From IMG/VR virus record IMGVR_UViG_3300031687_000046, positions 1 to 37,266 of that record: DNA of 37,266 nt, one strand, 5' to 3'. The translations under genes were made by a program, and so were the position numbers. The number at the start of each line of letters is the position of its first letter. Position 1 is the first letter of the stretch. The stretch is from a virus. This document shows, in pieces, positions 4,507 through 20,374 of this stretch. The notes under the pieces were generated by a model. It saw only the letters and a list, made by a program, of their open reading frames with translations, was not told the DNA's origin and made no database searches.

Positions 4507-4800
4507 CTAGAATTTTTGGTTTTCAATCTGGTTTCTATAATCTTCCAATTGTTTAGAAGCTAATTTTCCAGTATCTAAAATTTCTTGTAAGTTTTGTTCA
4601 ACTTTACCAACAATGTTATAAGCTAACCAAAGTTTTTCTCTGGTTTCATTTTCATTAACACCAGTATTTAATAAACTTGTGCAATATAAATTTTTTAACT
4701 TATCAAAAGAATCTTTTAGTAAAGGATCTTCTAATAATGTACTAGCCTTGTTTGATTGGCTTACTTCCTGTTGGAGCTTCGCTTGTTCCTGGTTGTCCAT
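4507..4800 (-). CDS. Small conserved protein downstream of portal, 97 aa
   Basis: A mostly helical protein whose centre (LLEDPLLKDSFDKLKNLY) resembles short phage proteins usually found next to the portal gene. The function of that group is unknown to me. It overlaps the 3' end of the portal gene by 59 nt in another frame, with its ATG at 4800, so its translation is probably linked to portal synthesis. No Cys cluster, signal peptide or membrane helix is present. Confidence 0.75.
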   Translation of the reverse strand: MDNQEQAKLQQEVSQSNKASTLLEDPLLKDSFDKLKNLYCTSLLNTGVNENETREKLWLAYNIVGKVEQNLQEILDTGKLASKQLEDYRNQIENQKF

Positions 4801-8628: not shown

Positions 8629-8980
8629 AATATTTCCTAATAGTGGTTGGTTGTTGTAGGTGTGTGTAACTTCCCTAATTTTATTTTTAATTTCTAAATA
8701 AGTTTTGGGGGTCGCTTTTTTCTTCACCCCATGACTTTCTGGTGCAAAACTGAGTAAAATGATTGTTAATCAACTGCTCTGGTTAAATAAGCTAATAAAT
8801 TAGCCATTTATTTATAGAAATATAAATAAAGTATAGCTTACCTTAATTTTTTAAGGTTTTACTTTAGAATCATTCTATTTTGTGACAAATATATCACACT
8901 TTTTTTTCTATAAGAGAGTGTGTGCTAGATTAATCTCTGACTCCCATGAATCATACAATAACCCAATCAATACAATACTT
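8629..8980. promoter_or_regulatory. Gap with candidate late-operon control elements
   Basis: About 350 bp without a convincing gene, between small terminase and the late operon. It holds a CCTTAA-TTTT-TTAAGG palindrome (8841-8856), a GCTAA-TAAA-TTAGC hairpin (8791-8804), a minus-strand TATACT that could serve as a -10 (8835-8830, no good -35 seen), and the TGTGA/TCACA palindrome listed separately. Promoter identity is an inference; the -10 overlaps nothing coding. Confidence 0.35.
8881..8898. promoter_or_regulatory. Palindromic operator candidate TGTGA-N8-TCACA
   Basis: TGTGACAAATATATCACA has 5-bp perfect half-sites (6 of 7 if extended inward). It resembles CRP/FNR-family half-sites but with an 8-nt spacer in place of 6. 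It lies upstream of the late operon and downstream of small terminase, a sensible place for a phage repressor or a host regulator to act. Confidence 0.45.
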
Positions 8981-9400
8981 TTACTTATCCCATTTAACAA
9001 TCAAAGGAGAGGAATCTGATCCAAATACCTGTAATTGATCTTTTTTCATGTATGTTTTAGGTGCTAATCGTTCTGATTTCCACTTAGTTAAATCAATAAA
9101 TGATTTGATTAAGTGAGTCTGACCTAAATCTGTTTTCTCTTTGTATTTACTATCTTCTAAACTCTGATTAATTAAATCAGTAGCATCACTTAATAAATAT
9201 TCTATTCCATCAGTCTTAGCTATTTCATATTGGCTTCTAAGCTCTTGGTCTTTAGCCATCCAGGTTCTAAATGATTGCCAACATGGTCTGTCTGGATTTT
9301 TATTCTTTGGAGATAAACAACTTCTGATACTTAAACCAATTGCTAGTTCTTCTATTATCTCAGCGATAACTTTTGGATTCTTTTTTGTTTTATTAGCCAT
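8981..9400 (-). CDS. Terminase small subunit candidate, 139 aa
   Basis: Start taken at ATG 9400 (MANKTKKNPKVIAEIIEEL); a longer GTG-started version to 9436 adds only 12 residues. The order of features matches small terminases of the DNA-binding helical type: an N-terminal HTH-like part with CWQSFRTWMAKDQELRSQYE (about residues 40-60), a helical middle, and a C-terminal IDLTKWKSERLAPKTYMKK that resembles the usual RKWLASKLAPKKYG ending. It would recognise packaging sites and load the large subunit. Its place ahead of the late operon agrees. Confidence 0.72.
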   Translation of the reverse strand: MANKTKKNPKVIAEIIEELAIGLSIRSCLSPKNKNPDRPCWQSFRTWMAKDQELRSQYEIAKTDGIEYLLSDATDLINQSLEDSKYKEKTDLGQTHLIKSFIDLTKWKSERLAPKTYMKKDQLQVFGSDSSPLIVKWDK

Positions 9401-17794: not shown

Positions 17795-18949
17795 TTAGTT
17801 ATTAAACTGTTGGTTCTGCCAATCGCTTCTTCCTTTTTCCATTTCAGTATTGGCATAAGGCTTAATGTAAGTTCGGTTCACAAAATTTACATCCTTATCT
17901 CCAAGAGCATTAGCTAGATCCTGAGGATCTGTGTATTTCTTTTCCTTAGCCCAGTAGGTAGCCATGTAGTGCCTAAAAAAGTAACACTTTCTAGGTATGG
18001 GTAACACTACCCCAAAACTCTTTGTTGCCCTGTCTAAGGCTCTTATAAGAGTTTCTAAACGCATATAATTACCCAAGTCATTAAGGAATAAGCTTTCCTG
18101 ATTAGCTGGTAATTTACTGATGTGTTCTTGGATCTTATCTTTAAGACCAGATGAGATAACTAAATCTCTAGTACCACCTTTAGTCTTAGGTGTACCAAGA
18201 GAACCATCTCTTTTAACTGCATGAGTAATACTAATATAAGGTTGATTGGATCTAAATTTTAAATGCGATTTATTTAAACCTCTAATCTCACTTGGTCTAC
18301 AAGCAGTCTGCAACATAATATGAAACATTAATCTTATATCTTTTTTATCTATATGATTAATAAGCTCAACAACTCTATCCAATGACCACTCATTAAAATC
18401 AAGTTTGTTAAGTTGTTTCTCAGGTATCACAATATGTTTAAGATAATCTAAATCCTTACATACATTTCTAGCTATTTTTTCTTTAGCAGCAGACTCATCT
18501 AAGATAGCACTTAAAACATTAAACACTTTAGATAGTGTTTTAGGATTAATAGTTTTCTTATCCTCCAAGAATTTAACAAATGATTTTACTGAATCTTTGT
18601 CAATTAACCTAGCATCCTGGTTATAAAAGTATGGCAAGATGTGAAAGCTAGCAAAGCTATTATAATCTCTGATACAGCTTTTAGATGGTTTGCCATATTG
18701 ATCTTCTAAATAAAGCTGACGAACAAGCCATAGTTGGTGAGCTTCATCTATACTCCAATAGCTAAAATCAGTAATTTTAAAACCATCAGTTTCAACTTTC
18801 TTTACTACAATAGGAGTAAGATTTTTTCTCTTACCCCTTGTAATAAACTTGATTTTATTATCAGCACCCTTGTACTGAAAACGATACTTAGTCTGACCTC
18901 TAACTTGTACTGGTGTAATATTATTATATTGTAGTTTTTCTTTAGACAT
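17795..18949 (-). CDS. int: Tyrosine integrase, 384 aa
   Basis: Arm-binding N-terminus (1-60), core-binding domain (about 65-165) and catalytic domain (about 185-370). Catalytic positions: R218 in ACRPSEI, the beta-hairpin lysine K255/K257 in TPKTKGGTRD, R326 in YFFRH and the nucleophile Y361 in NRTYIK. The first His of the HxxR box is Tyr (Y323) and the H/W position is Asp (D351), an unusual pair of changes. The enzyme would integrate at the tRNA-Asn half-site found about 1 kb away. The ribosome-binding site AGGAGAGAG lies before the ATG. Confidence 0.94.
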   Translation of the reverse strand: MSKEKLQYNNITPVQVRGQTKYRFQYKGADNKIKFITRGKRKNLTPIVVKKVETDGFKITDFSYWSIDEAHQLWLVRQLYLEDQYGKPSKSCIRDYNSFASFHILPYFYNQDARLIDKDSVKSFVKFLEDKKTINPKTLSKVFNVLSAILDESAAKEKIARNVCKDLDYLKHIVIPEKQLNKLDFNEWSLDRVVELINHIDKKDIRLMFHIMLQTACRPSEIRGLNKSHLKFRSNQPYISITHAVKRDGSLGTPKTKGGTRDLVISSGLKDKIQEHISKLPANQESLFLNDLGNYMRLETLIRALDRATKSFGVVLPIPRKCYFFRHYMATYWAKEKKYTDPQDLANALGDKDVNFVNRTYIKPYANTEMEKGRSDWQNQQFNN

Positions 18950-18960
18950 TATGCTCTCTC

Positions 18961-19122
18961 CTATGTGTTATCCATCATTTCATTGATTAAGTTTTGTTGC
19001 TCAATACGACCAATCTGGTCAAATGTATCTGGCTTAGATTTTTTACAATCTTCATTTTCACATATTAGAAAATCATTAGAATCTAATTTTAAGTCCTCTC
19101 CACATTCTATACAAGTTTGCAT
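18961..19122 (-). CDS. Zn-ribbon mini-protein, 53 aa
   Basis: MQTCIECGEDLKLDSNDFLI is followed by CENEDC, so four Cys (4, 7, 21, 26) could hold one zinc. The ATG overlaps the stop of the previous gene, and the upstream GGGAGAGCATA cassette works as ribosome-binding site. The TAG stop leads into the AGGAGAGAGCATA that starts the integrase. It might be a recombination directionality factor or regulator given its operon position; that is a guess. Confidence 0.75.
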   Translation of the reverse strand: MQTCIECGEDLKLDSNDFLICENEDCKKSKPDTFDQIGRIEQQNLINEMMDNT

Positions 19123-19367
19123 TATGCTCTCCCTGTTAGTTTAGTTTTAAAACAAGGTAAAATATTAAACTCAACTTTATATAAAAAATCAAGTTTATCT
19201 CTAACCATATCAACAAAAGAATCATAACCAATTATACTGTCGATAACTTTCCATTGTCTTTGATTTTTACAAATAAATTCATCAACATCATTGTAAAGAC
19301 AACTATCTCCAGAACCTCTTTTATTGATAATATCTACTGCCAATTTATTTACTAATCTTTTAATCAT
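19122..19367 (-). CDS. Hypothetical protein, 81 aa, integrase operon
   Basis: A helical protein (MIKRLVNKLAVDIINKRGSG) with VDMVRDKLDFLYKVEFNIL near the C-terminus and Cys residues not arranged as a zinc site. Its last residues TGRA are encoded by the same bases that form the ribosome-binding cassette of the next gene, and its own start uses the same arrangement. Function unknown. Confidence 0.7.
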   Translation of the reverse strand: MIKRLVNKLAVDIINKRGSGDSCLYNDVDEFICKNQRQWKVIDSIIGYDSFVDMVRDKLDFLYKVEFNILPCFKTKLTGRA

Positions 19368-19663
19368 TATGCTCTCCCTCCATAATAGTTTAGCTCATTC
19401 TCTTTTTGACATTCTTCCAGCTCATCAACTGGAAGTTTTGGTTTTACAATTTTTAGATTATCAAATAAATCTAAAGCACCAACATCTTGTGCTTCTCCAA
19501 TAGTGCCATCAATTTTATGAATATTTATTGTAGCATTATATTTATCAGCACTTGCAACATTACAAATCATACCAAAGTAATTCAAAAGTCTTTTTTGATC
19601 TTTGTATAAATTTAAAGTGATTTGTATTACTTTACGATTTCTTCTTTGTTTTTGTGTAGTCAT
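19367..19663 (-). CDS. Hypothetical protein, 98 aa, first gene of integrase operon
   Basis: Basic start (MTTQKQRRNRKVIQITLNLY), then a mixed middle with IDGTIGEAQDVGALDLFDNL and an acidic end that closes with YYGGRA. AAGGAGAGAGAAAA precedes the ATG. As first gene of a four-gene unit ending in int, it could be an excisionase-like or regulatory factor, but I see no diagnostic HTH. Confidence 0.7.
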   Translation of the reverse strand: MTTQKQRRNRKVIQITLNLYKDQKRLLNYFGMICNVASADKYNATINIHKIDGTIGEAQDVGALDLFDNLKIVKPKLPVDELEECQKENELNYYGGRA

Positions 19664-19884
19664 TTTTCTCTCTCCTTATGTTAGTTGACGTTATATATTA
19701 CATAAGTTATACCTGAGATTAAGTGGATTACAACAGTCAATTGACCATATACTGCAATCATTTTACACCTAGCTCCAGGTGATATAAAAAAAATATGAAA
19801 TTGTGAGAAACGATTCGGTATAATTTTGGTATAACTTTTGTAATCAAAATTATTTTTATCGCATAAAACGAATAGTACAGTCAC

Positions 19885-19924
19885 AAAAAAAGAGCCGAAA
19901 AAAATCTTGCGATTCAATTCGGCT
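19885..19924 (-). terminator. Rho-independent terminator facing left
   Basis: On the minus strand AGCCGAA (19924-19918) pairs with TTCGGCT (19899-19893), with an inner AATC/GATT stem, and is followed by C and seven T (19891-19885). It would stop the long late transcript coming from the right before it reaches the integrase operon. Confidence 0.75.
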
Positions 19925-19935
19925 ATATATATAAA
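19907..19935 (+). promoter_or_regulatory. Promoter-like sequence ahead of the tRNA half
   Basis: TTGCGA (19907-19912), a 17-nt spacer, then TATAAA (19930-19935). The tRNA 5' end is 13 nt further on, so a start near 19942 would give a leader of about 6 nt. This spacing suits a promoter that drives the host tRNA after integration. The -35 box is in the loop of the opposing terminator. Confidence 0.65.
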
Positions 19936-19947
19936 CACTTTTAATAT

Positions 19948-19989
19948 TCCTCGGTAGCTCAGTTGGTAGAGCAGTTGACTGTTAATCAA
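19948..19989 (+). other. 5' half of a tRNA-Asn(GTT) gene: attP core
   Basis: TCCTCGG acceptor strand, TA, GCTC...GAGC D-arm with AGTTGGTA loop, A, then GTTGA-CTGTTAA-TCAA anticodon arm with GTT anticodon. tRNA-like sequence ends there: the next bases (GTTGCCCACCC) do not complete a variable loop, T-arm or 3' acceptor strand. This is therefore not a working tRNA but a 42-nt identity block for integration at the anticodon stem-loop of a host tRNA-Asn gene. Confidence 0.85.
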
Positions 19990-20176
19990 GTTGCCCACCC
20001 TAAAAACCTACCTATACCTAGTCTTTTACAAAAAAGTATAATCACAGTATATTTTTCATATTAGTTTTCATCTCATTTACCATAACTTATGTAAATTAAA
20101 TGTTAACCTAATATAAAGTTTATACCACTAAAATTCTTTACCCACCACTACCCCTGAAAGTCAATTGACTAACAAC

Positions 20177-20192
20177 TGATCTGAAAAGATCA
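20177..20192 (-). terminator. Small hairpin past the last late gene
   Basis: TGATCT-GAAA-AGATCA, a perfect 6-bp stem 12 nt after the stop at 20204 in the direction of the late transcript. No T tract follows on the minus strand, so it is more likely an mRNA end-stabiliser than a full terminator. Confidence 0.35.
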
Positions 20193-20203
20193 AACCGATT
20201 TTG

Positions 20204-20374
20204 TTACTTTCTTTTTGTTTTCTTAACTTTCTTAGCAGTCTTAGCTGCTTTCTTAAAATTGGCTGCTGTTGGAAAACCTTTAGCTCCAGGTCGTTTCATT
20301 GTTTCACCACTACCAGCTTTAATTCTTTTTCGCTTAGCATGGATGTTGGCGTATAAGCCTTTTACTTTTGCCAT
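20204..20374 (-). CDS. Small very basic protein, 56 aa
   Basis: MAKVKGLYANIHAKRKRIKA, then GSGETMKRPGAKGFPTAANF and a Lys/Ala tail. I recognise this YANI.AKR.RI..GSGE.MRKPG pattern from small basic proteins of marine phages and bacteria whose function is not known. Alanine/lysine repeats in the tail resemble histone H1-like tails, so DNA binding is plausible. The ATG overlaps the stop of the gene ahead (TAATG). Confidence 0.8.
   Translation of the reverse strand: MAKVKGLYANIHAKRKRIKAGSGETMKRPGAKGFPTAANFKKAAKTAKKVKKTKRK

Follow-up and report, generated by a model that had tools for sequence, protein, structure and literature searches.

Integration into tRNA genes is usually called harmless on the ground that the host promoter stays in place. 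With very few exceptions a bacterial tRNA retains its own promoter (PMC8371274, which also discusses how anticodon loops resemble core sites), and elements that carry the 5′ part of their tRNA or tmRNA target (Zhao and Williams, 2002) are, as PMC6563490 describes them, considerably less frequent. Integration of the T7-like cyanophages P-SSP7 and S-TIP37 has been shown experimentally and stable lysogens were not found (PMC8776855). For tRNA-dependent lysogeny, cases outside actinobacteriophages have been asked for (PMC10865867).

We analyzed the whole of one IMG/VR virus record of 37,266 bases, which we call the window. Its closest cultured relative among the phages compared is Pelagibacter phage HTVC106P (amino acid identity of 62% for the portal, 56% for the terminase, and 61–67% for several structural proteins), from which an integrase annotation is absent. 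SAR11 bacteria are the commonest bacteria of the ocean, and positions 19948–19989 of the window (plus strand, TCCTCGGTAGCTCAGTTGGTAGAGCAGTTGACTGTTAATCAA) match nucleotides 1–42 of SAR11 tRNA-Asn(GTT) at 42 of 42 positions (E 8e-19). This match spans the acceptor 5′ strand, the D arm, the anticodon loop, and four bases of the 3′ anticodon strand, after which the phage reads GTTGCCC and the host TTGGTCG. No complete tRNA gene was found in the window with ARAGORN. The core is the 5′ half of the tRNA, anticodon loop included, without the 3′ half, and this agrees with a preliminary description of the locus that had reported 42 nt of tRNA-Asn(GTT) followed by unrelated sequence.

To compare this with hosts, we fetched 120 host-genome loci that contain the 42-mer exactly; of those listed, nearly all bear the title Pelagibacteraceae or Pelagibacterales. 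All 120 run on into the 3′ half of the tRNA (one is cut by the end of the locus), which is where the window departs. The usual host order is valS, tRNA-Cys, tRNA-Asn, an HTH gene, and aap transporter genes, with the HTH and aap genes converging on tRNA-Asn. An exact 38-mer was present in 264 of 397 Pelagibacterales genomes, and in the per-genome table two copies occurred only in genomes G181 and G003. Genome G002 (L208, which is its contig C15, and L209), outside this sample, also has two copies; it contains an apparently unintegrated contig like pelagiphage HTVC028P with an intact attP, and its own tRNA-Asn is already preceded by a phage-like TTTTGATTTACAG region and lies beside genes other than valS. 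In genome G004 (L036) the region upstream of tRNA-Asn is unlike both native and HTVC028P-type promoters and there is no adjacent tRNA-Cys; this is possibly the end of a third type of element.

A tyrosine integrase of 384 amino acids is encoded at 17795–18949 on the minus strand (PHROG integrase, E 5e-28; Pfam Phage_integrase above the cut-off). The gene is intact, lies about 1 kb from the core, and is read opposite to the tRNA. Between it and attP the ORF list has two small ORFs of 81 and 98 amino acids (19122–19663, minus strand) with no match in Pfam. Relatives of the integrase at 33–92% identity adjoin the same attP. Repeats flank the core as well: AGTCAATTGAC is found at both 19735 and 20159, giving a putative arm-type site on the left (19735–19745, plus strand) and another on the right, which reads AGTCAATTGACT (20159–20170, plus strand) and is kept in the right arm of attL in G003. 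An inverted repeat of 35 nt has its left element at 19676–19710 (plus strand), 74% complementary to the right element at 20082–20116 (minus strand); the latter contains CTTATGTAAATTAAA, also present in attL of G003. Repeats placed in this way around a core are of the kind expected of integrase arm sites, and we regard them as putative sites.

Under our main reading, to which we give a probability of roughly 0.88, 19667–20230 serves as attP for a temperate pelagiphage, with the host's tRNA-Asn gene as the target and the anticodon loop as the place where the integrase recombines; the rebuilt tRNA would be read from phage DNA, and a terminator on the opposite strand would guard int. A crossover in the anticodon loop would fit the shared region, which includes the whole loop in every Asn-type attP. 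Phage DNA upstream of the crossover would supply the tRNA from nucleotide 1 to about 31, so that the full tRNA would be rebuilt at the prophage end where phage DNA lies upstream and the other end would keep the host promoter followed by a truncated 5′ half. Because the phage would supply everything upstream of the crossover, the rebuilt gene would depend on phage DNA, and it would be transcribed from there; a promoter within the 60 nt before the core is the most likely source.

Searches with the window integrase gave no match in GenBank phages or in Pelagibacterales genomes (12 chosen and 397 sampled). The failure to find a lysogen of the window phage itself among the 397 genomes by this search is what one would expect if the tRNA fragment had been left behind by imprecise excision or captured as a piece, and were not a functional attP. 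We consider such an origin very improbable, given that the half is exact in 21 viral contigs beside integrases with identities down to 35% or unalignable, that the arm repeats flank the core, and that real junctions occur in G181 and G003.

In G181, contig C12 carries valS, tRNA-Cys, the native promoter, tRNA-Asn nucleotides 1–38, phage DNA, and an integrase 75% identical to that of HTVC028P, in this order, and contig C21 carries phage genes, an HTVC028P-like arm, a complete tRNA-Asn, and host genes. The two contigs are unjoined in a fragmented assembly and hold complementary parts syntenic with HTVC028P; the simple reading of this arrangement is that they would form one HTVC028P-like prophage. 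With both ARAGORN and Rfam, one tRNA-Asn was found among the 26 tRNAs of this genome. In G003, contig C4 runs from tRNA-Cys through the native promoter and the 5′ half into a right arm like that of the window (75% over 169 nt in register, E 3e-23), and contig C24 has a left arm that matches the window's at 28 of 28 nt (E 5e-9), followed by a complete tRNA-Asn. The island in G003 (L207 1–6879 and L206 1–799) holds non-phage genes; judged by eye from translations, these include a cytosine DNA methyltransferase and two further ORFs, one large and helicase/nuclease-like and the other restriction-like. It has no match to the window integrase, and it may be a decayed prophage or an integrase-dependent satellite.

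In both genomes the restored tRNA lies downstream of element DNA and the host promoter stays with the tRNA fragment. Once integrated, the element stands between the tRNA and its host promoter, so that the tRNA must be transcribed from element DNA. The proposal in the preliminary description that this is an attP targeting tRNA-Asn is borne out by the integrase 1 kb away and by these junctions at tRNA-Asn in related elements; we found neither prophage junctions elsewhere nor host loci where identity extends through the 3′ half and not the 5′ half. It had also been suggested that integration swaps in a phage promoter and 5′ half and so places the tRNA under phage control. The exchange of upstream DNA holds, since phage DNA joins the front of the restored tRNA and the host promoter is left on the truncated copy in G181 and G003, but having its promoter in phage DNA would not by itself put the tRNA under phage control.

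The candidate promoter consists of TTGCGA at 19907–19912 and TATAAA at 19930–19935 (both plus strand), separated by 17 nt and ending 12 nt before nucleotide 1 of the tRNA. TATAAA is kept in close relatives (L123, L132, and L143). The hexamers, their spacing, and their place ahead of the tRNA agree with the preliminary description; however, the −35 hexamer lies outside the interval first assigned to the feature and a positional score for the pair gave a p of only about 0.03. We consider this promoter plausible from its sequence and statistically weak. The positional test has little power, since native host tRNA-Asn promoters score poorly on it as well, and it cannot decide the matter because known host promoters score no better. 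A standard scan for promoters and terminators was uninformative, as it demands T at position 6 of the −10 hexamer and its stem-loop rules miss a hairpin at 19893–19924; it did not list TTGCGA–TATAAA, and it gave 4 hits in the region compared to 3.3 in shuffles, which is no enrichment. In other attP types (L126, L135, and L128) the positional score for a consensus promoter gave p>0.6, and some types may use read-through or promoters outside the consensus.

These scores would also suit an alternative in which the tRNA of the lysogen is read by read-through or from another promoter in the arm, with the hexamers being a chance match in AT-rich DNA. We think this somewhat unlikely. The 17-nt spacer and 12-nt distance resemble native SAR11 tRNA-Asn promoters (for example TTGTTT-17-TATGTT at 9 nt), and TTKACA-17-TAAA recurs in divergent arms of the HTVC028P type. 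In the window, int and the ORFs to the left of the core are directed away from the tRNA.

On the strand opposite the tRNA, 19884–19924 (minus strand) contains a terminator-like hairpin (19893–19924) followed by a U run, with a folding energy of −15.2 kcal/mol and a z score of −3.85; none of 200 shuffles was as good. A hairpin and U run occur at the same place in L124, L126, L130, L137, and L141 with differing stem sequences. A minus-strand terminator here would shield int in the lysogen and the free phage alike, facing read-through from the convergent host aap and HTH genes in the former and the minus-strand late operon in the latter. We also considered an RNA switch, since in L124 and L141 a complementary GGTGGGYTA/TARCCCACC pair covaries across the core, and dropped it, as the window and L123 have no such pair. 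Between L124 and L141 the pair changes jointly: one contig has GGTGGGCTA/TAGCCCACC and the other has GGTGGGTTAC/GTAACCCACC.

A promoter motif of the HTVC028P type was found ahead of tRNA-Asn in 6 of 397 Pelagibacterales genomes, one of them being the lysogen G181. In the remaining five (G001, G244, G136, G170, and G371), tRNA-Cys lies 107–201 nt upstream with no prophage between, and the intergenic DNA matches phage left arms over approximately 80–124 nt (best E per genome from 6e-29 to 4e-12). At most other loci the usual promoter is close behind tRNA-Cys (about 48 nt in L008). The phage-like stretches are apparently promoter scars of lost prophages, where the prophage and the native promoter would have been deleted and the phage promoter, by then essential, would have been kept. 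If the sequence were instead an ancestral host promoter that phages acquired, no prophage need have been lost; the direction of transfer is unproved, and several of the genomes look related by flank, so that the events may be few. This is unlikely in our judgment. The homology takes in the 80–124 nt of phage arm, including a putative arm site, TTCACTATTT, that is also in the right arm, and about 115 other SAR11 tRNA-Asn loci have no phage-arm match.

The same geometry is widespread among pelagiphages. The exact 42-mer occurs in 28 viral contigs. In 21 of them there is the 5′ half only, with unrelated right flanks, and the other 7 have a complete tRNA. In the larger viral contigs L125, L131, L134, L138, L142, and L145, a complete tRNA-Asn gene with these 42 nt directly follows other tRNA genes. 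The contigs with the tRNA-Asn half have integrases of either the window type or the HTVC028P type, and BLAST aligned no pair between the types; in the former, int and the promoter lie on the same side of the core, and in the latter they lie on opposite sides. Because the integrases are not alignable and int is on opposite sides, the two types appear to have reached the same tRNA half independently.

For a broader survey we compared SAR11 tRNAs with cultured pelagiphages and scored partial fragments near int. The attP of HTVC028P has tRNA-Asn 1–38. Nucleotides 1–41 of tRNA-Cys were found in HTVC021P, 022P, 121P, 201P, 304P, and Jormungand, and with one mismatch in 131P; tRNA-Arg 1–42 was found in HTVC120P and Bylgja (93–98% to non-host genomes) and tRNA-Leu 3–42 in HTVC109P (95%). 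No 3′-only tRNA fragment near int was seen among the cultured pelagiphages compared. HTVC011P (L249 5592–5672) and HTVC200P (L288, approximately 1140–1229) have a complete tRNA-Leu immediately next to int, in contrast to their relatives, whose attP holds half a tRNA, and were set aside because they cannot discriminate between halves. The attP of cyanophage P-SSP7 reads as the 5′ half of tRNA-Leu, as judged by tRNA structure and not against the host gene. The HTVC022P-type integrase had no match in 377 genomes, and hence no tRNA-Cys lysogens were obtained from these.

HTVC019P (L248) offers a comparison within one integrase family. Its attP (4713–4727) keeps only nucleotides 27–41 of tRNA-Cys, and it has a complete tRNA-Cys at 8946–9019, whereas seven phages without a tRNA gene, with integrases 85–98% identical to that of HTVC019P, keep nucleotides 1–41. 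This contrast, from a single phage, suggests that nucleotides 1–26 are retained for rebuilding the tRNA and not for integrase binding. It also makes HTVC019P a candidate for tRNA-dependent lysogeny outside actinobacteriophages.

The 5′-half attP is a general habit of pelagiphages and not a feature of one phage, a point that the preliminary description missed. Integration by way of the 5′ half is itself not new, being known and uncommon. Its prevalence across pelagiphage integrases, the natural junctions, and the apparent promoter scars in hosts seem to be new; in the literature searched, we found no earlier description of pelagiphage attP sites as 5′ halves, with the main pelagiphage lysogeny paper excepted. 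What matters is that the geometry opposite to the usual one recurs with several unrelated integrases in a very abundant group of marine phages. Lysogeny then ties the supply of an essential tRNA to phage DNA and selects for a phage promoter that is active in the host, and clean loss of the prophage depends on keeping that promoter. We are inclined to accept, with reservations, that this guild of phages settled on 5′-half integration, that lysogeny moves an essential and usually single-copy tRNA onto a phage promoter, and that after decay of the prophage selection keeps this promoter, leaving SAR11 tRNA-Asn permanently phage-driven.

As a comparison, the element of Zhao and Williams (2002), as described in PMC6563490, is like the window in carrying the 5′ and not the 3′ part of its target; by that description it is set apart as rare, whereas the 5′ half is the rule among the pelagiphages tested. 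The archaeal pTN3-like integrases (PMC8371274) likewise have an attB in the 5′ half of a tRNA, and the recombinant tRNA is expressed from element DNA. In that case the integrase promoter drives the tRNA and int is split on integration; in the window attP is not inside int, which is intact, 1 kb off, and in the opposite direction. In tRNA-dependent lysogeny (PMC10865867), survival of the lysogen likewise needs phage DNA for an essential tRNA function. There a core of about 10 bp is used and the broken host gene gives way to a whole tRNA encoded by the phage, whereas in the window a 42-nt half rebuilds the host gene and no complete tRNA of that isotype was found. The T7-like cyanophages P-SSP7 and S-TIP37 (PMC8776855) likewise have int and an attP matching a host tRNA, theirs being tRNA-Leu of a cyanobacterial host, and the dependence on phage DNA proposed here may bear on their integration without stable lysogens. 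Among pelagiphages, HTVC028P, HTVC022P/121P, HTVC120P, and HTVC109P have other integrases and, except for HTVC028P, other tRNAs (Cys, Arg, and Leu), and their attP likewise runs from tRNA nucleotide 1 (or 3) to 38–42.
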